Below are positions 48,954 through 62,787 of a stretch of 64,000 bases of DNA, one piece after another. Positions within the stretch are counted from its first letter, which is position 1. Each line of letters begins with the position of its first letter. The notes beneath the pieces were generated by a model. That model was not told where the DNA came from, made no database searches, and worked only from the letters and a program-made list of their open reading frames with translations. The DNA comes from Halothiobacillus neapolitanus c2 (GTDB lineage: Bacteria > Pseudomonadota > Gammaproteobacteria > Halothiobacillales > Halothiobacillaceae). The stretch spans positions 248,001-312,000 of the forward strand of contig NC_013422.1 of the NCBI RefSeq assembly GCF_000024765.1, read 5' to 3'. Made by a program: the position numbers and the translations under genes.

Positions 48954-49256
48954 TTAGGCGGGGAAAACAGCCTGATGAACATCCATATTTTTATGAAGCA
49001 TGCGCACCACTAGAATCTCCTCGTTTGAGAGGCACTCGTAAAATACCACATGGCTCTGAAAAGGATATTTGCGCACACCTGTTTCGATGTAATCACAGGC
49101 ATTACCAAGTGTTGGCGAATCGGCCAGTATCTTGAAAGTTTCATCCAAGCCTTTGAGGTAATGCAGGCGTTGTGCTCTCCCCCAATGTTTTTCTGTGAAT
49201 CGTGCGATTCCACGCAAATCGGCTTTTGCGGAGTGGCTAAGAGAAAATTTGCCCAT
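48954..49256 (-). CDS. parE: ParE-family toxin
   Basis: The 100-residue protein has the ParE pattern: FSLSHSAKADLRGIARFTEK, then ADSPTLGNACDYIETGVRKY, HVVFYECL and ILVVRMLHKNMD. ParE toxins block DNA gyrase. The ATG overlaps the ParD stop codon as TAATG. Its stop lies just five bases from the MITE-like element. Confidence 0.9.
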   Translation of the reverse strand: MGKFSLSHSAKADLRGIARFTEKHWGRAQRLHYLKGLDETFKILADSPTLGNACDYIETGVRKYPFQSHVVFYECLSNEEILVVRMLHKNMDVHQAVFPA

Positions 49257-49495
49257 TAACTCAATTCATTATCGAGTTCGGCCATAAACTTTTCATAGTT
49301 GTATTCAGCCGTTCCACTGGCTCGGCCTTCTGCTATTAATTGGCGCAGTGTTTCCAGTTTCTGTTCTTCATTCTCAAGCAGGCGCAAACCAGCGCGCACC
49401 ACCTCTGTCGCTGAGCCATAGCGGCCTTTCGACAGTTGAGCTGCAATAAACTGATCAAAATGGTTTCCCAAGCTGACACTGGTGTTTTTTGCCAT
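49256..49495 (-). CDS. parD: ParD-family antitoxin
   Basis: ATG 49495, preceded by GGAGAC, gives 79 residues: MAKNTSVSLGNHFDQFIAAQ, RYGSATEVVRAGLRLLENEE, and an acidic end YNYEKFMAELDNELS. The N-terminal ribbon-helix-helix binds its own promoter, the C-terminus masks ParE. It pairs with the ParE gene immediately downstream. Confidence 0.92.
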   Translation of the reverse strand: MAKNTSVSLGNHFDQFIAAQLSKGRYGSATEVVRAGLRLLENEEQKLETLRQLIAEGRASGTAEYNYEKFMAELDNELS

Positions 49496-49649
49496 TGGGT
49501 TGTCTCCAAGAAATACCAATATTTGGTAAATATTGCAAAAGGCACCTAGCAAGTCAATCCAGATTGCCTTCAACTCAGAGCGGCAGGGCGTGCACGGCGC
49601 TCAAATCAATTCAGTAAGAAACTGAACTCGCCGTGTTTTCGACATGCCC

Positions 49650-50324
49650 TCAGGATGCTTTACTCCAATCCCCCTGCCATACAACCGGGCCGACCGGCTT
49701 GTTGCCAATTGGCTTGCCGGTGGGTTCCAAGCTGATGGCGAGTTTGGTTTGTGCAATCGTATTGCTCCAGAGTGCGGGGCGTACCGTGACGCTTTCCCCT
49801 TTCTTCATCGGCAAACTGCCAACGGCCACCGTTTGTCCTTGCGGGGTAATTAACCACAGAACGGCTTGTTTGTTAATTTCTTGATCGGCATTTGTCAAAC
49901 AGGTGACTTGAAGCTGCTGTGTTGTTGTATCCGCCTTGGCTTCCCACATGGCGGATTGGCCTTGTGCCATCGGCATCATGGCGATGCTGTCGGCCTGCAT
50001 GGTTGGCTTGTTGGGCACAAAGACGCCGACGAGCAGCCCGATTCCGATCATGGCGACAATGGCTGCGGCCATGCGCCAACGTAGCAATGCGCTGCCGACA
50101 TCCTGCGCCTGATGATCGAGCTGTCGTTCGATGCGGGACCATACCCAGCCGAGCAACGGGCGCGATTCGCATTGTGACAGCAGGTGATCGGAGATGATCA
50201 GCGACCAGTTGGTGACGGCACGCCGTTGCTCGGGCGATGCTTTGATTGCCCGCTCGGTCAACCGATCGGTTGGTTCGTCCAGCAGACCGAGGACATATTC
50301 GATGTGTTCAGTGGATTCGTTCAT
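49650..50324 (-). CDS. RskA-like membrane anti-sigma factor
   Basis: The 224-residue protein has an N-terminal cytoplasmic anti-sigma domain (EHIEYVLGLLDEPTDRLTER), one membrane helix (AAAIVAMIGIGLLVGVFVP, about residues 89-108) and an RskA-type periplasmic domain ending in LEPTGKPIGNKPVGPVVWQG. It lacks the zinc-binding H-x3-C-x2-C motif of the ChrR/RsrA group. It would hold the adjacent sigma factor at the membrane until a periplasmic signal releases it. The genes are separated by one base, sigma first. The target is probably the divergent MNIO operon. Confidence 0.85.
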   Translation of the reverse strand: MNESTEHIEYVLGLLDEPTDRLTERAIKASPEQRRAVTNWSLIISDHLLSQCESRPLLGWVWSRIERQLDHQAQDVGSALLRWRMAAAIVAMIGIGLLVGVFVPNKPTMQADSIAMMPMAQGQSAMWEAKADTTTQQLQVTCLTNADQEINKQAVLWLITPQGQTVAVGSLPMKKGESVTVRPALWSNTIAQTKLAISLEPTGKPIGNKPVGPVVWQGDWSKAS

Positions 50325-50325
50325 G

Positions 50326-50949
50326 TCAGTTCACCAGGCCAAGACAGGATTTGAGATTGATTAAGGCGCGTCGAATCCAGCTTTTCACGGTGCTGAGTGA
50401 CGTGGAGAGTTCATCGGCAATTTCTTGGTAGGTATGACCGAACCAGAAAGCTTTGTGGATGGCCTGACGCGGTTCGGCACGCAGTGCTTCGAGGCACCGT
50501 GTCATGGCCTCGCGATCCATGAGTTGCCAGTCGTGTGGATCGCCGTCCGCCGATCCTCCTTGATGGCCCTCCGGGGAGAGCAGGGGGGCATCGGCCAGTG
50601 CCAGAAAATCAGCCCAGTCCGCTGTGGTAATTTCCCGGTTGAACCGGCGCAACAAGCTGATCGCACGATGGTGCGCGATGGCGGCCAGCCAAGTCATCGG
50701 CTGCGCGCGGGCTGAATCAAATCGGCCCGCTTGCTGCCAAACCGCCAGAAAAACATCCTGAACGCACTCTTGCGCGCGACCTTCCTCTTTTAGTATACGC
50801 AGGCATAACCCGTAAAGTGGTCCGGATGTGCGTTGATACAGTTTTTGGAATGCGGACCGGTCCCCCGCTGCCGTGGCTTGCAACCACTGTGTGAGCTGAT
50901 CATCGTCTTGATTACGGTCCTTGTTCGATCGATTGGGTTTCATGCTCAT
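50326..50949 (-). CDS. ECF-type sigma-70 family factor
   Basis: ATG 50949, with AGGAG before it, gives 207 residues. Region 2 is DRSAFQKLYQRTSGPLYGLC through ECVQDVFLAVWQQAGRF, with the promoter-melting MTWLAAIAHHRAISLLRR. Region 4 is PRQAIHKAFWFGHTYQEIAD followed by LSTSLSTVKSWIRRALI. Group closest by pattern is SigK/RpoE-like with RskA partners. It is divergent from the SCGANMKK peptide gene over 418 bases, and probably activates both its own promoter and that operon; no promoter consensus was identified with confidence. Confidence 0.88.
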   Translation of the reverse strand: MSMKPNRSNKDRNQDDDQLTQWLQATAAGDRSAFQKLYQRTSGPLYGLCLRILKEEGRAQECVQDVFLAVWQQAGRFDSARAQPMTWLAAIAHHRAISLLRRFNREITTADWADFLALADAPLLSPEGHQGGSADGDPHDWQLMDREAMTRCLEALRAEPRQAIHKAFWFGHTYQEIADELSTSLSTVKSWIRRALINLKSCLGLVN

Positions 50950-51367
50950 GCCGATCCGGCTCCTCTTGATTCGTTTGGAGGGGTGGTTCATCCCGTCGCT
51001 CGACACACTGCGCTGGCCATTATCCGTGGTGATTATCCCTGGGGATGTTCTTGGAAGATCGCTTGGCATGCTCATCATCGCATGCATGCGGCCCGTGTCG
51101 AGCTGTGTGCAAACCCTCATCGTTTCGTTTTTTCTGTTTGCTCACAATTCAGAATACGTGCTCAAGTCGGATTCGGTTGCATCCCGCGTTCAGTTTATTT
51201 CAGCCATAAACGATTTTTTTTGCATCCCATCGCCACTTCCGTGCGTAGATGAATTGCGAGACGAACCTGCTCGCAAACCGTCGAGCGTCGACGGGCATAT
51301 TAATTTGCCGCTCGCGCCGGTCGATGAAACTGGATTTATTTTTCAATGAGTTGATGGAGATTTTTTG
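50950..51367. promoter_or_regulatory. Divergent control region between the sigma factor and the MNIO operon, with two palindromes
   Basis: No gene is supported in this 418-bp region. Two perfect inverted repeats lie in tandem about 75-115 bases before the peptide gene: TTGCGAG/CTCGCAA (51254-51260 and 51270-51276) and CCGTCGA/TCGACGG (51278-51284 and 51288-51294). They could be operators, part of an ECF promoter, or stems in the 5' untranslated message. GGAG lies eight bases before the peptide ATG. Confidence 0.55.
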
Positions 51368-51625
51368 ATGAAAACCCGTACTTTGAAAGCTGCTGTGATT
51401 GCCTCTACCGCCTTGTCTGCTGCCTTGGTGGCAGGTACTGCCTTGGCTAATCCGTTTGTCAGTCAGCACGGTGCCTCTCTGGTGAAGGTTTCCGATGCTT
51501 CCTGCGGTGCTAACATGAAAAAGAGCGATAGTTCTTGTGGCGCGAACATGAAGAAGAGCGACAGTTCCTGTGGTGCCAACATGAAGAAGAGTGACAGTTC
51601 CTGTGGCGCGAACATGAAAAAATAA
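51368..51625 (+). CDS. Secreted repeat peptide, putative MNIO-modified RiPP metallophore precursor
   Basis: ATG 51368 gives 85 residues. A Sec signal peptide (AAVIASTALSAALVAGTALA) probably ends after A27. After a short spacer come four repeats of SCGANMKK separated by SDS, with Cys at 46, 57, 68 and 79. Secreted low-complexity Cys repeat peptides directly before DUF692 and DUF2063 genes are the bufferin/HvfA family, in which the oxidase turns Cys into oxazolone/thioamide or thiooxazole groups that bind copper. HvfA repeats are normally EGKCG; here DSSCG replaces them. The role in metal binding is inferred. Confidence 0.78.
   Translation: MKTRTLKAAVIASTALSAALVAGTALANPFVSQHGASLVKVSDASCGANMKKSDSSCGANMKKSDSSCGANMKKSDSSCGANMKK
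51500..51622 (+). repeat. 33-bp tandem repeat encoding SCGANMKKSDS
   Basis: Units begin at 51500, 51533, 51566 and 51599, the last truncated to 24 bases. Codon choices differ between units (TGC/TGT, GCT/GCG/GCC), so selection has kept the peptide while DNA drifted. Confidence 0.93.
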
Positions 51626-51956
51626 GTGCGACATGGTCGTCTCCCTTGGCTCATCTCTGGTGGGCTAAGGGCATCCGGACGTAACGAGGATCGATTGATT
51701 TTGCCTTGGCATTCGGTGTCTGCGCGAGATTGATCTATCCTTTTACCACTAGTGGCCTGACTATTCGGGCCCTGCACACTGTTTGGTCAGCCGCATGGCG
51801 TCCAAGTCATTTTTGGCGTTGCCCTTGGTTCTTGCGAGGTGTCACGTGCCGACCTGACAGTGTGGAGGGTGATTCGAAAAAGCGAATCGCGATCACTCAA
51901 TCCTGACTACCCCTGTTTTGGGTTGATGCCCCTCGATTCTGGCGAAGGAGGTTGCA
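51626..51956 (+). promoter_or_regulatory. Intergenic region with RNA hairpins between the peptide and MNIO genes
   Basis: No gene was supported. A hairpin at 51643-51671 has an 11-pair stem (with G-U pairs) and seven-base loop, without a T-run, and lies 18 bases after the peptide stop. A second one at 51871-51888 pairs GATTCG with CGAATC. The first could partly end or stabilise the peptide transcript so that more precursor than enzyme is made. GGAGG precedes the MNIO start at 51957. Confidence 0.55.
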
Positions 51957-52805
51957 ATGATTACAGATGCGAAACATGTGCTGGTCGGCGTGGGTTTGCG
52001 GCGCGGCTCGTTGATGCAGCAGATCGAAACCGATCACCCCGATCTTGATTTTTTGGAAGTCGCGCCCGAAAACTGGATGCGATTGGGGGGTGCAGTCAAG
52101 CGGCAGTTCGAGTCCCTGCTGGAACGCTATCCCTTGTATCTGCATGGACTGTCACTCTCGATCGGCGGGCCAGCCCCACTGGATGTGGATTTTCTCAAAT
52201 CGCTGCGTGCATTCATCGATCGCTATCAACCCGTCCTCTACAGCGAACATCTCTCGTTTTGTACGGACAATGCGCATCTCTACGACTTGATGCCGATTCC
52301 GTTTACCCGCGTGGCAATGCGACATGTGGTCGAGCGTATCCATCGCGCTCAGGACATTCTGGGGCAGCGGCTGACGTTGGAGAATGTGTCTTATTACACC
52401 GCGCCCGATGCCGAAATGAACGAGTTGGAATTTCTGACCGAGATTTTGCAGCAAGCCGATTGCGATTTGTTGCTTGATGTTAATAACGTGTACGTTAACA
52501 GCGTCAATCACCGCTACGACCCGGTGGCCTTTCTTGATGCGCTGCCCGTTGAGCGCGTGCGTTATCTGCATGTGGCGGGGCATTTGCAACTCAGCCCCGA
52601 TTTGATTGTGGACACGCACGGCGCTGCGGTTGCCGATCCGGTCTGGGATTTGCTGGCGCACACATACACTCGTTTCGGGGCCGTGCCCACATTGCTGGAG
52701 CGGGATTTTGATATTCCGCCGCTGGCGGATTTGATGCAGGAGGTCGCCCAGATTCGCCGTGTGGCCGCCGGTGCGCACAACAAAGTGCTGGAGCCGGTGG
52801 CATGA
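51957..52805 (+). CDS. DUF692 multinuclear non-haem iron oxidase (MNIO, BufB/HvfB-like)
   Basis: The 282-residue protein is a DUF692 TIM-barrel enzyme. Recognisable parts include VGVGLRRGSLMQQI, DFLEVAPENWMRLGG, YSEHLSF, LENVSYYTAPD, LLLDVNNVYVNSVNH, YLHVAGH, VDTHGAAV and ERDFDIPPL. These carry the His, Glu, Asp and Asn ligands of the two- or three-iron centre. MNIOs oxidise Cys residues of RiPP precursors. The next gene, DUF2063, overlaps its stop by four bases and provides the substrate-binding partner. The putative substrate is the peptide encoded 330 bases upstream. Confidence 0.92.
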   Translation: MITDAKHVLVGVGLRRGSLMQQIETDHPDLDFLEVAPENWMRLGGAVKRQFESLLERYPLYLHGLSLSIGGPAPLDVDFLKSLRAFIDRYQPVLYSEHLSFCTDNAHLYDLMPIPFTRVAMRHVVERIHRAQDILGQRLTLENVSYYTAPDAEMNELEFLTEILQQADCDLLLDVNNVYVNSVNHRYDPVAFLDALPVERVRYLHVAGHLQLSPDLIVDTHGAAVADPVWDLLAHTYTRFGAVPTLLERDFDIPPLADLMQEVAQIRRVAAGAHNKVLEPVA

Positions 52806-53551
52806 ACACGGATTTTTTGACACTGCAATCCCAGTTCACCGCTTTTATCCGCAATCCCGAGCATGCGCCGGTGCCCGAAGGCTGCGATCCCGAGCGGATG
52901 AAGCTCTACCATCAACTGTTTTTCAATAACTTTGATGGCATATTGGAAAACACCTTCGACCGCACCCGAGCCCACCTCGCCGATGAGCAATGGCAAGTGC
53001 TGGTGAAATTATTCTTTTCCAGCGTGCCGCAACATTCGCCTTATTTGGTGGATGTGCCTGCACGATTTCTCGAGTTTTTGCAGGAACAGAACACGGTACC
53101 CCTAGCCGAAGCATTATTGGAGTTGGCCGCCTTTGAGGCGACGCTGCACGAATGCCGGATGGCCGAGGATATAACGCTGCCCCAAGCCCCTCAAACGCAG
53201 GCTGAAGATGTGTTTGATGGTGCCTGGCAACCGCACCCCCAAGGCGTTTTGTTTGAAAGCGCTTATCCGGTGAATCAGGCCGATTTTCCACTGGATGAAG
53301 CGCCTGCCCAGCCGACTTTGCTCTGGATTCAGCGGGATGATGCCGGTGTGGTGCAGATCTATAATTTATCAGCAGCCAGCGCGCGTTGGCTTGTGTTGCT
53401 GGATGCTCATGCAGGTGCAACGCCAAATGTTTCACTGGCGCAACTGGCCCAAGAGCTCAATGTTGAACCAGATAGCTTGGCCGAGTTTGCGTGTGCACAA
53501 CTGGCCGATTGGATAGCCGATGGTGTTTTGATTCCCGCCTTAAGTCACTAG
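52802..53551 (+). CDS. DUF2063 MNIO partner protein (BufC/HvfC-like)
   Basis: The 249-residue protein has the DUF2063 N-terminal pattern ([58 protein letters not shown]). The C-terminal half resembles a RiPP recognition element-like winged helix ([20 protein letters not shown], ending [14 protein letters not shown]). Such partners form a complex with DUF692 enzymes and hold the precursor. Its start is ATGA-coupled to the MNIO, and the next gene follows after four bases. Confidence 0.88.
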
Positions 53552-53555
53552 GGCG

Positions 53556-56075
53556 ATGCAACGCCATCGTAACTGTTGGATAAAGGTGTTCGTCCGGCTT
53601 GCGCTGGCGAGCACTGTTCTGATCGTCCCGGTTACTGTTCCGGCAGCCAACACCCAGCCTACGCAAGCAGAACAACAAATCACGCGCCCACAGGTCGATT
53701 GGCCTGTTCTTCCAACCGCCTTGCAGAAAAAACTCAACAAGGCGTTAGCAGATCAAGCCCAGCAAAACGGGCAGAGCACCCGCGATTACCACACCCGTTG
53801 GCTCAATGCCGATGGCCTGCCGATGTTCACCAATCGCCTGATTTTAAGCGATTCGCCCTATCTGCTCGAACACGCCCACAATCCGATCAATTGGTACGCC
53901 TACGGCCCTGAAGCGCTGGCGGCGGCCAAAGCGCAAAACAAACCACTGTTTATTTCGATTGGTTATGCCAGTTGCCATTGGTGCCATGTGATGGCCCGCG
54001 AGAGTTTCGAATCGCCGGCGGTCGCGCGGGAATTGAATCGCCATTTCATTGCCGTGAAGGTTGATCGCCAACAGCAGCCAGCGCTCGATCATCGCTATCA
54101 GATCGCTGTGGCATTGGTGAATCAGGGGCAAAGCGGTTGGCCTGCCAGTGTGTTTGCGTTGCCGGATGGCCGACCTTTTTTCACCCAACTTTATCAACCC
54201 GAACCCTCTTTTTTGGCGACGCTGAATAACGTGCATCATGTATGGCAAACGAAGCGGCCAGAGGTGACAAACGATGCGGTCAAATTAACCGCATTGATGC
54301 GCCAAGTGCTCGATCAACAAGCCAAAGCGGCAAAATTGGATGATTCGGTTCTGGCAAGAACCGTCAACGCATTGACCGCTCAATTCGATCCGTTCCAGGG
54401 CGGGTTTGGTGATGGCGCTAAATTCCCACAGGCCACGCGATTACTCTTTTTGCTGGATTGGTTGGCGCGGGAGCAAGCGCATTTGTCGCATCCAAATGCG
54501 GCAGGCGGCGTTTCTACCGCACAAACAAAAGCGTTGCAAAGTGAGCTGGTGCTGACCTTAAATCACATGGCGCGCGGCGGCTTGTTTGATCAAATCGGTG
54601 GTGGGTTTTTCCGGTACAGCACCACACCGGATTGGCAGGTGCCGCATTTTGAAAAGATGGCCTACTATCAGGCCATGCTGGCGCAAACCTACCTCAAGGC
54701 TGGGCTGGTTTTGGGCAACGCCCGAGACTGGCGGGTGGCCGAACGCACGCTCGATTTTGTGATCCGCGATATGAGCGCTGCCGATGGCGGGTTTATTGCC
54801 GCCTTGAGCGCAGATAGTGCCGTCAGTCATCGGGCGGGTGCGGCAAAAGAAGAAGGTTATTTTTACACCTGGACGCCCAAGGAAATAGCCGAAGCGCTGC
54901 CACACTACGAGGCGCTTTTGGCCGAACGGTATTGGTCGATCACGGCCAGTGGCACTGTAGATGGCCGCAGCGTGCCGCATCAAGGGGATGCGGCGGTTCA
55001 AGCCACTATGGCAAAGGACGAAGGCATGAGCCTGCCTGCATTGACAGCCAAAATGGTCGCGATACGTGCCAAGCTAGAATCTGCGCGGAAACGGCGGCCC
55101 GCGCCTGGGCGTGATGACAATCGCATCCTCAGTTGGAACGGCCTGCTGATTGAAGCGCTCGCGGATGGCGGGCGAGTGCTCGGCGTGCCAAGATTCATCG
55201 CTGCGGCGCAAAAAGCCGCGGAATTTATCGACACAAACATGCGCTTGCCAGATAAGACGCTAGCGCACAGCTACAACCGCGGCGTGGCCAGCGGGCGGGC
55301 GAATTTGGCCGATCATGCCGATTTCGCGCTCGGCTTGGTGGCCTTATACGATGCCACGGGCAAAAATCATTGGTTGCGCGCGGCTCAAAAACAGGCGCAA
55401 ATCATCATGCAGGATTTTGCGGCAGCCAATGGCGGCTATTACGATCACAAAGCCTTGCACACAAAAGCCGATAGTGATGTGTTGAATTTGCCGTCCCGCC
55501 CGATTGACGACGGTGCTGAACCGGCGGGCAATGCCCAAGCACTGGCTTTGCAGTTGGCGTTGGCGGCGCGCACGGATGATGCCACCTATCAAGAAGCCGC
55601 CGAACGGATGCTGGCAAGCTTTTCCGGCTTGATCGTCCGTGACCCGACCGACTTCACCGGCCTGCTGGCGGGGCTATCTGATTTACGCCACGGCTCGGTT
55701 GGCAGTCTCGCGTTCGCCGGTAAAGGCAATGTCCGAATCGAAGCGGCGCGCACGGCAAAACACACTGCCGAAGTGCGGCTGCATTATACGGCGCCTTGGC
55801 ACAGCAACGCCCACGATGCCTCACCGGGCTTGATTCCCACGGCTATCACGGTAAGCCCCGATGCGTTTGTCCGGCAAATTGATTATCCGCAGGGTGAAAA
55901 AGTAAAACTGGCCTTCAGCGATCAACCGTTAAACCTCTATACGGGCACGCAGGTTCTGGACATAAAGTTGAATCCTCATGTGTCCGGACCGATGCGGATT
56001 AGGGTGCAAATTCAGGCGTGCAGCGATGCCACCTGCCTGGCACCGGAGGATCTGGCGATCTGGTTGCCGCTCTGA
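53556..56075 (+). CDS. DUF255 periplasmic thioredoxin-fold protein with C-terminal DsbD-like segment
   Basis: The 839-residue protein starts with a signal-like helix ([18 protein letters not shown]), so it is probably periplasmic, unlike the usual cytoplasmic YyaL. The DUF255 thioredoxin-like domain (about residues 90-260) has [20 protein letters not shown] and the Cys motif [14 protein letters not shown]. An (alpha/alpha)6 glycosidase-like domain follows ([40 protein letters not shown]). The extreme end, [20 protein letters not shown], resembles the DsbD N-terminal domain. Only four bases separate it from the DUF2063 gene, so it may handle the Cys of the peptide. Confidence 0.82.
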
Positions 56076-60791: not shown

Positions 60792-60817
60792 AAAGCCGCA
60801 GCAAACTGTGGCTTTTT
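60792..60817 (+). terminator. Rho-independent terminator after the SQR-like gene
   Basis: AAAGCCGCAG and CTGTGGCTTT pair over ten positions (one G-U) around a four-base loop and are followed by T residues. It lies 34 bases after the SQR stop codon and just before repeat copy 3. Confidence 0.85.
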
Positions 60818-60848
60818 GTTTGTTTGAATTGAGTTCGTGAAGACTTAA

Positions 60849-60957
60849 GGGAAGCTCTAAAAACTCGTCATTCCCGCGTAGGCGGGAATCCAGCCCCTTG
60901 ATTTTTCTGGGTTCCCGCTTTCGCGGGAACGACGAATCACGGTATTTCGAGGTGCCC
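60849..60957 (+). repeat. Palindromic dispersed repeat, copy 3
   Basis: This copy holds ATTCCCGCGTAGGCGGGAAT and the same GTTCCCGCTTTCGCGGGAAC palindrome as copy 2. It ends one base before the recQ stop codon (60958-60960), so the element lies right against that gene. Confidence 0.92.

Positions 60958-62787
<1,830 letters not shown>

Follow-up and report, generated by a model that had tools for sequence, protein, structure and literature searches.

The locus studied here lies in a stretch of 64,000 nucleotides from the sulfur bacterium Halothiobacillus neapolitanus c2 (the window) and raises the question of whether a secreted peptide with four SCGANMKK repeats, encoded ahead of an MNIO and its DUF2063 partner, represents a new class of cysteine-modified chelator or a variant of a known one. 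A preliminary description of this DNA had recognized an MNIO/DUF2063 RiPP operon related to the HvfA and bufferin metallophores, which our analysis supports, and had thought a new class plausible, which it does not support. We conclude that the window system is a variant of the HvfABC/captophorin type, not a separate class, and the locus is, in our judgment, likely explained as a stress operon of the HvfABC (captophorin-like) type whose precursor has diverged. The precursor itself is not filed as HvfA proper; in our view, the system functions as captophorin systems do. The features of the operon and its flanks are collected in Table 1.

Table 1. Features of the hvfABC-type operon and flanking genes (positions in the window)
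Feature	Position	Strand	Evidence or remark
RskA-type anti-sigma factor gene, likely regulator	49650..50324	-	PF10099, 34.2 bits against 29.4
ECF sigma factor gene, divergent from hvfA	50326..51120	-	Sigma70_r2 and Sigma70_r4_2; true start probably further in
hvfA-like precursor peptide gene, 85 aa	51368..51625	+	ATG 51368, stop 51623-51625; Sec-like N terminus, then NPF
Precursor core, four 11-residue units SD[A/S]SCGANMKK	51491..51622	+	Repeat spacing, codon comparison
Structured spacer RNA between precursor and MNIO genes	51626..51956	+	z -4.46 sense, -0.98 antisense
MNIO, HvfB family	51957..52805	+	NF003818, 406.9 bits against cut-off 360; PF05114, E 1.4e-107; R15, R16, D250, F251
DUF2063/PME1 partner, HvfC family	52802..53551	+	NF050145, 175.3 bits against cut-off 142; PF09836 and NGO1945_C
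DUF255 (Thioredox_DsbH) protein	53556..56075	+	Starts 4 nt past hvfC; DsbD_N match just below cut-off

The SCGANMKK repeat is under purifying selection

The precursor is as previously described, with 85 residues, four copies of SCGANMKK, and cysteines at positions 46, 57, 68, and 79; its secretion signal, judged by eye, has a basic N terminus and a hydrophobic stretch, with ALA ahead of NPF. One unit reads SDASCGANMKK and three read SDSSCGANMKK, at a spacing of 33 nt in the DNA. Pairs of units within the precursor show 4 to 6 synonymous and 0 to 1 nonsynonymous codon differences, and 24 synonymous and 1 nonsynonymous differences separate the 44 core codons of the window from those of a second Halothiobacillus genome, G009. 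Because synonymous differences dominate, although only 17% of single-base changes in the window core are synonymous, the repeat is not due to chance and the repeat peptide is under purifying selection; the selection that the preliminary description had read from the differing codons thus holds. The Cys-Gly and the acidic residue at -3 are invariant across the tandem precursors of the window genome, G005, and G009. All four SCGANMKK precursors that we found (window, G005, G009, and G003) adjoin an MNIO, and the idea that the repeat peptide is unrelated to MNIOs was rejected for this reason.

Cores without lysine before cysteine are uncommon, not unique, beside HvfB

HvfB scored over its cut-off in 10 of 10 Halothiobacillus genomes (including that of the window), 10 of 11 genomes of the sister genus, and 20 of 27 genomes of the order. 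The precursors can be arranged as a series that runs from EGKCGEGKCGANK in G025 (same family; its MNIO match, split in two, stays below the cut-off) and EGKCGGSMNKSS in Chromatiales, through the EMACG type of the sister genus (EMACG[A/S]G[Q/K]CGS[S/N]M at 10 of 10 loci) and the EMxCGG type (EMxCGGxxxCGG, the two-Cys precursors of the other six genus members), to SDSSCGANMKK. The precursors of G005 and G009 contain four such units each, and that of G003 contains two SCGANMKK and one SCGGSMK.

We surveyed HvfB in 275 genomes of the class, of which 92 have HvfB over the cut-off, giving 95 HvfB places and 90 examined loci; G111 and G233, for which upstream DNA was lacking, were excluded, and a separate count was kept for the window and two sister-genus genomes. 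A precursor was obtained at 67 of the 90 loci, and the 23 loci without a precursor by our filter were dropped from the motif counts. Among the 454 cysteines of the 67 precursors, the preceding residue was Lys in 357 cases, Ser in 26, and Arg in 15, with Glu at -3 in 398 and Met at +4 in 45; a few odd cysteines stem from over-long ORF starts. Gly followed Cys in 429 cases, a count that is biased upward because the filter requires Cys-Gly. EGSCG accounted for 20 of the 454 contexts, 11 of the 67 precursors lack any EGKCG, and 4 lack Lys before any Cys, and EGSCG and EGACG units occur mixed with EGKCG inside single precursors.

A scan of a public genome set (84,980 species) for MKK-x-CG[A/G][N/S]MK, which requires this codon set and at least two units, returned 12 loci. 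Six are real precursors (three from Halothiobacillus and one each from Chromatiales bin20021, HyVt-414, and Methylophaga NORP33), and the other six look like chance. These loci bear on a question raised in the preliminary description, whether the repeat commonly occurs without DUF692: five of the six real precursors adjoin an MNIO, and the sixth, a pair of tandem precursors in Methylophaga, lies apart from that assembly's HvfB. The precursors from outside Halothiobacillus (L073, L075, and L080 in the order given) are of an EGKCGGSMNK type. Like the window precursor, they consist mostly of single-Cys CGxxM units, and in L073 and L075 an MNIO adjoins; unlike it, they are longer, carry EGK or EAK before most cysteines, and pass the cut-off of the EGKCG/HvfA motif model NF050137. 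With mostly EGKCG or EAKCG ahead of CGxxM, they therefore bridge the canonical repeat and the window repeat.

The window precursor does not reach the NF050137 cut-off (14.7 bits against 19.5), nor do the precursors of G009 (13.6) and G003 (16.3); the G007 precursor and the orphan precursor described below were not listed as matches in this search. Those tested from Chromatiales, HyVt-414, Methylophaga, and G025 score above the cut-off. We also built a leader profile from the 44 of 67 surveyed precursors that had EGKCG, N/S/T-PF, and a fitting length, with the core removed, and used it to search 4413 ORF segments of the window and 20 loci. Ranks 1 to 18 were taken entirely by precursors that are either MNIO-associated or orphan, and two of these adjoin a second MNIO type. 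The window precursor ranked 15th (E 0.27, which alone is not significant) and came out first among the 920 segments of the window, and the genus precursors L089 and L086 and the window genome's orphan (L083) scored below unrelated segments. This result is consistent with, and no proof of, a leader that the window precursor shares with the EGKCG precursors.

The enzyme and its partner belong to the HvfB and HvfC families

The MNIO gene and the DUF2063 gene overlap by 4 nt. Between the precursor stop and the MNIO ATG there are 331 nt, compared to a median gap of approximately 26 nt in the 67 surveyed loci; the gene order had been described correctly, and the earlier statement that the peptide lies directly before the MNIO needs this qualifier. 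The MNIO is the only match of its kind in the window genome. The comparison with the HvfB and BufB families that the preliminary description proposed places it with the former: it passes the HvfB cut-off and misses that of the BufB model NF050167 (294.7 bits against 310). The MbnB model is far off (64.4 bits against 325). We compared the window MNIO with 32 relatives picked from the available loci. It keeps 55 of the 56 columns with at least 97% conservation among them, together with the selectivity residues R15, R16, and F251 and the catalytic D250 ahead of the latter; 31, 30, 32, and 26 of the 32 relatives agree on R15, R16, D250, and F251, respectively. In a tree of 55 rows, 34 far-side rows split off with support of 95/74 (not starred). 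The MNIO groups with its genus and the sister genus, and a recent import from outside the family was rejected. The G003 SCGANMKK type and the other three formed one group in 4% of bootstrap trees.

In the sections of Gadgil et al. (PMC13097082) available to us, Arg15, Arg16, and Phe250 of the captophorin enzyme FonB serve selectivity, and R15, R16, and the D-F pair are tied to the selectivity of Lys-Cys enzymes. According to the same sections, FonBC processes DGKCG fully, accepts Ala, Arg, and Thr for Lys and takes Phe and Glu badly, modifies variants with the natural motifs AKCGA, GKCGT, and NVCGG once only, and favors a small residue after Cys; it left a one-repeat peptide unmodified, and the two tested repeats were 5 residues apart. 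Neither Ser at the Lys position nor DSSCG is among the FonBC variants named in those sections. By analogy, DSSCG would lie within or near the range that FonBC tolerates because the acidic first residue, Cys, and Gly are kept. The preliminary description had taken DSS before Cys as a different recognition context for the oxidase; the DSS is there (DAS in one unit), whereas a different type of enzyme is not supported, given that R15, R16, and the D-F pair are kept.

The HvfABC systems, or captophorins, with EGKCG repeats include oxazolin, fontiphorin, gonophorin, and bulbicupramide. The window system shares with them an HvfB-family MNIO, an HvfC-family partner, the gene order A-B-C, and a precursor with an acidic -3 residue, Cys-Gly, and repeats; the putative Sec-like leader of this precursor, with its NPF, resembles theirs with the N/S/T-PF motif. 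It differs from them in having DSS or DAS for EGK, 11-residue single-Cys units with Met at +4, a structured spacer of 331 nt, an orphan precursor elsewhere, and no DoxX found in the genome, although DoxX (HvfX) is frequent, not universal, in HvfABC operons. Bufferins (Buf1 with DUF2282, and Buf2) also combine an MNIO, PME1, and a Sec-type precursor. The window precursor, however, has no DUF2282 match up to an E value of 1, and bufferin identity was rejected on this and the unmet BufB cut-off. Methanobactin (MbnABC) has an MNIO enzyme and a copper peptide in common with the window system, with the MbnB score far from its cut-off; its partner and product differ.

A new class is not supported because the enzyme and partner pass the HvfB and HvfC cut-offs (Table 1), the selectivity residues are kept, and EGSCG and EGKCGGSMNK units bridge the cores. 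A separate class would mean that the HvfBC of this lineage yields a different product, by way of Ser for Lys and 11-residue units with Met. The precursor score under the EGKCG model cut-off would fit this, as would HvfB positions such as 106, 125, 139, 163, and 270, which are common to Halothiobacillus and the sister genus and unlike the 32 relatives, and in type-1 EGKCG precursors as published, each repeat spans 17 residues and holds two motifs (PMC12452194, in the part available to us). We nevertheless consider a different product very unlikely: the catalytic and selectivity residues are unchanged, non-Lys units occur side by side with EGKCG in the mixed precursors mentioned above, and, according to PMC13097082, 5-thiooxazole is what every characterized MNIO-PME1 case installs.

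The operon probably occupies a new genomic place

In seven examined loci (five from the genus and two from the sister genus), the gene order is ung-radC-hvfC-hvfB-hvfA, and in five of the seven a thioredoxin-like gene and hemC lie beyond. The window genome, G005, and G009 lack hvfBC at this site and carry a two-Cys hvfA on its own after radC, located in the window genome at G000:C1:2316575-2316802 on the minus strand; by eye, a stem and T run follow this orphan in all three genomes. The orphan differs between the window genome and G005 by 12 synonymous and 10 nonsynonymous codon differences, and between the window genome and G009 by 14 and 11, with 24% synonymous expected. Only 1 (G005) and 2 (G009) of the nonsynonymous changes fall in the core, and the linker holds more. 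As far as sequence can tell, the orphan hvfA probably remains in use, in which case it would be served in trans. Antoine et al. (PMC12452194, in the part available to us) report precursor genes that stand alone or in tandem, and also several hundred small precursors with Cys that belong to none of the named families.

In G001 and G008, the neighboring helicase gene and the DUF255 gene stand in the same order as in the window, and no match to RskA, ECF, or hvfABC was found in the 2871 nt (G001) and 1655 nt (G008) between them. By eye, this stretch contains a gene resembling a SAM methyltransferase, and an extra ORF in G001. Since both genomes carry these flanks but lack the module, the place that the module occupies in the window genome, G005, and G009 is probably new. 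The simplest history would be that the sigma pair and hvfABC moved or were copied, that the older hvfBC were lost, and that the older precursor stayed; we infer the direction, with the radC site as the older one, because the sister genus shares that site. The G003 operon lies in a third place, ahead of a gene for an MsrA-Trx-MsrB fusion.

The presence of two precursors also bears on another reading, in which the tandem SCGANMKK peptide binds copper through unmodified Cys and Met, and HvfBC acts on the orphan, or poorly on the tandem peptide. The orphan keeps the older-type core and persists in three genomes, and units with Cys and Met could bind Cu(I) without modification. It is the tandem peptide and not the orphan, however, that stands in the operon in four of four genomes, and the invariance of its Cys-Gly and acidic -3 residue in the window genome, G005, and G009 also speaks against an unmodified binder, which we regard as highly improbable.

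A structured spacer separates the precursor and enzyme genes

The spacer between hvfA and hvfB is approximately 280 to 335 nt long in the window genome, G005, and G009. Compared to shuffled sequences, the sense strand folds with z scores of -4.46 (window), -5.36 (G005), and -5.35 (G009); a second estimate gave -4.37, -4.95, and -4.86, respectively, and -1.79 for the window antisense strand. Among 100 control segments of 334 nt over the 64 kb (sense strand only, 20 shuffles each), the mean z was -0.44 (SD 1.17), with one of 100 at or below -4 (at -5.4), and nine other spacers of the family (111 to 193 nt) had z scores from 0.7 to -2.9. The window and G005 spacers are 86% identical. Of 105 predicted pairs, 13 are changed on one side between the two, 1 on both, and 0 are broken, in a structure fitted to these same two sequences. 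The G009 spacer has no match to the other two and was missed by a covariance model of one domain; therefore, it is either unrelated or too diverged. Because the model scored the reverse strand of the sequences behind it as well (37.3 and 28.1 bits), the domain alone does not fix the strand.

With one genomic copy, and its DNA present in 2 of 10 genus genomes, the spacer was rejected as a multicopy mobile repeat, and with no Rfam match up to an E value of 1 in 51000-52300, it was rejected as a known RNA family. Our best guess is that it is an mRNA element that would raise the amount of precursor above that of enzyme; a structure placed between the two kinds of RiPP gene suggests how a single transcript could yield plenty of peptide but little enzyme.

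Flanking genes and possible regulation

An RskA gene lies near hvfA in G005 and G009, at the window-type place, and in G004, G007, and partly G002, at the older place. An ECF gene is found near hvfA in G005, G009, G004, and G007, with a mere fragment match in G006 and none in G001, G008, G010, and G017. No ECF promoter could be settled, and the upstream regions align well only between the window and G005. In the literature as available to us, nothing usable was found on expression in Halothiobacillus.

The DUF255 gene stands in the same order in G005 and G009. Because G001 and G008 have it between the same flanks while lacking hvfABC (55 to 56% identity to that of the window), it is probably an older resident of the window site, and its recruitment for the operon was rejected. 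Neighbors with a thioredoxin fold recur: Thioredoxin_7 close to the older site, DUF255/DsbH downstream of the window operon, and MsrA-Trx-MsrB behind hvfC in G003.

The same chemistry could serve redox or oxidative-stress buffering rather than copper, as this recurrence may hint. We think such a role unlikely, since DUF255 lies between the same flanks even where the operon is absent and the products known so far generally bind Cu (PMC13097082, in the sections available to us).

DoxX has 0 matches in the window genome and scores over the cut-off in 2 of the 27 genomes of the order. In G025, which carries EGKCG repeats, it lies right behind hvfC; in G008, it lies beside a second MNIO, which falls below the HvfB cut-off. 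Loss of DoxX and loss of EGKCG coincide in the order, on few independent events. Genes 3' of hvfC were inspected by eye in 18 of 30 loci of the survey. The fon cluster consists of A, B, and C only, without DoxX, in the available text of PMC13097082.

A proposed mechanism and its implications

In the mechanism that we propose, the Sec signal of the peptide would double as its leader, and HvfC (RRE/DUF2063) would present the peptide to the iron enzyme HvfB. In every DSSCG unit, HvfB would then oxidize the Cys so that it forms a 5-thiooxazole with the carbonyl of the Ser before it, at a loss of 4 H per Cys, or about 16 Da for the whole peptide. The modified peptide would reach the periplasm and bind Cu(I) via its ring thiolates, and the Met four residues past each Cys may join in this binding. 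The ECF/RskA pair would probably induce the operon, and the spacer probably keeps the precursor in excess of the enzyme. Within Halothiobacillus, the module would have left its older place beside radC, where the two-Cys precursor survives alone. Perhaps the window operon, whose MNIO gene is the single one found in the genome, supplies the proteins that modify this orphan in trans.

The captophorin-like reading of the locus is favored by the HvfB and HvfC cut-offs, the single MNIO match, the conserved columns and selectivity residues of the enzyme, the precursor series, the leader ranks, the tolerance of FonBC for small non-Lys residues (PMC13097082, as available to us), the flanks without the module in G001 and G008, and the orphan at the radC site in three genomes. 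Against it stand the precursor score under the HvfA motif cut-off, the leader match that is not significant alone, the low leader ranks of L089, L086, and the orphan, the DoxX not found in the genome, and, from the same sections of PMC13097082, the lack of DSSCG among the reported substrates and the need of FonBC for two repeats, 5 apart, whereas the window units are 11 apart. In addition, mmrABC of Microbulbifer, with the canonical motif, was not observed in proteomes under copper, and its authors hesitate on copper protection (PMC12538549, in the part available to us).

We also put forward a more detailed picture, tentatively and with much less confidence than the operon type itself. One relocated HvfBC pair may serve a four-fold DSSCG-xxM peptide in cis and the older two-Cys peptide in trans; the spacer, found only where the repeat has expanded, may set the ratio of precursor to enzyme; and the units may form thiooxazole-plus-methionine Cu(I) sites unlike those of the EGKCG captophorins.

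Captophorin enzymes are very numerous, and the determinants of their substrate range are an open question. Here, a close series of genomes places EMACG, EMSCG, and DSSCG cores beside enzymes with EGKCG-type selectivity residues. Together with a precursor left without its enzyme, this series makes genes of a harmless chemolithotroph available for testing substrate choice in cis and in trans.

Structured RNA in the precursor-MNIO spacer

Each of the three genomes that encode a four-unit precursor has a strongly structured intergenic RNA separating the precursor gene from the MNIO gene, with fold scores (z) of -4.4 to -5.4 relative to shuffled sequences. Among the 334-nt control windows tiled over the 64 kb, a single one, at 60801-61134, had an RNA fold score comparable to that of the spacer. 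The translation of an open reading frame in that control window contains the string DSRLRGND, which is known from palindromic repeats.

Coordinates of the spacer, the orphan precursor and neighboring genes
Feature	Location	Strand	Remark
Structured spacer RNA, precursor to MNIO	window 51626-51956; L091:8614-8946; L090:9440-9716		fold z
Orphan two-Cys hvfA paralogue	L083:8576-8803; L084:2560-2787; L085:8201-8428	- (L083, L085)	adjoins radC
radC-to-orphan-precursor stretch	L084:2788-3083; L085:7903-8200
ParD-type antitoxin gene	window 49256-49573	-	PF03693; adjoins anti-sigma factor gene
MsrA-thioredoxin-MsrB fusion gene	L092:10319-11650		G003; start directly 3' of hvfC

Precursor genes and their surroundings

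The orphan paralogue is separate from hvfBC at all three loci, and downstream of the gene comes a stem resembling a terminator, with a T tract. Its spacing from radC is 154 nt in the window genome versus 296 to 298 nt in G005 and G009.

Methylophaga NORP33 carries two HvfA-type precursors in tandem (L080:6946-7728); we found no MNIO in the L080 stretch around them, and the HvfB of this organism (L159) has no adjoining precursor.

Unusual precursors were observed at other HvfB-type loci, L125, L142, L154, and L157: repeated KCGNICGG/CGTFCGG units and also two-Cys DPAVCG-type peptides. At L123 and L156, the precursors adjoining the HvfB enzymes are built of EGSCG (and EGGCG) repeats, and Cys is never preceded by Lys.

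In the precursor units of G003, Met lies close to the Cys motif.
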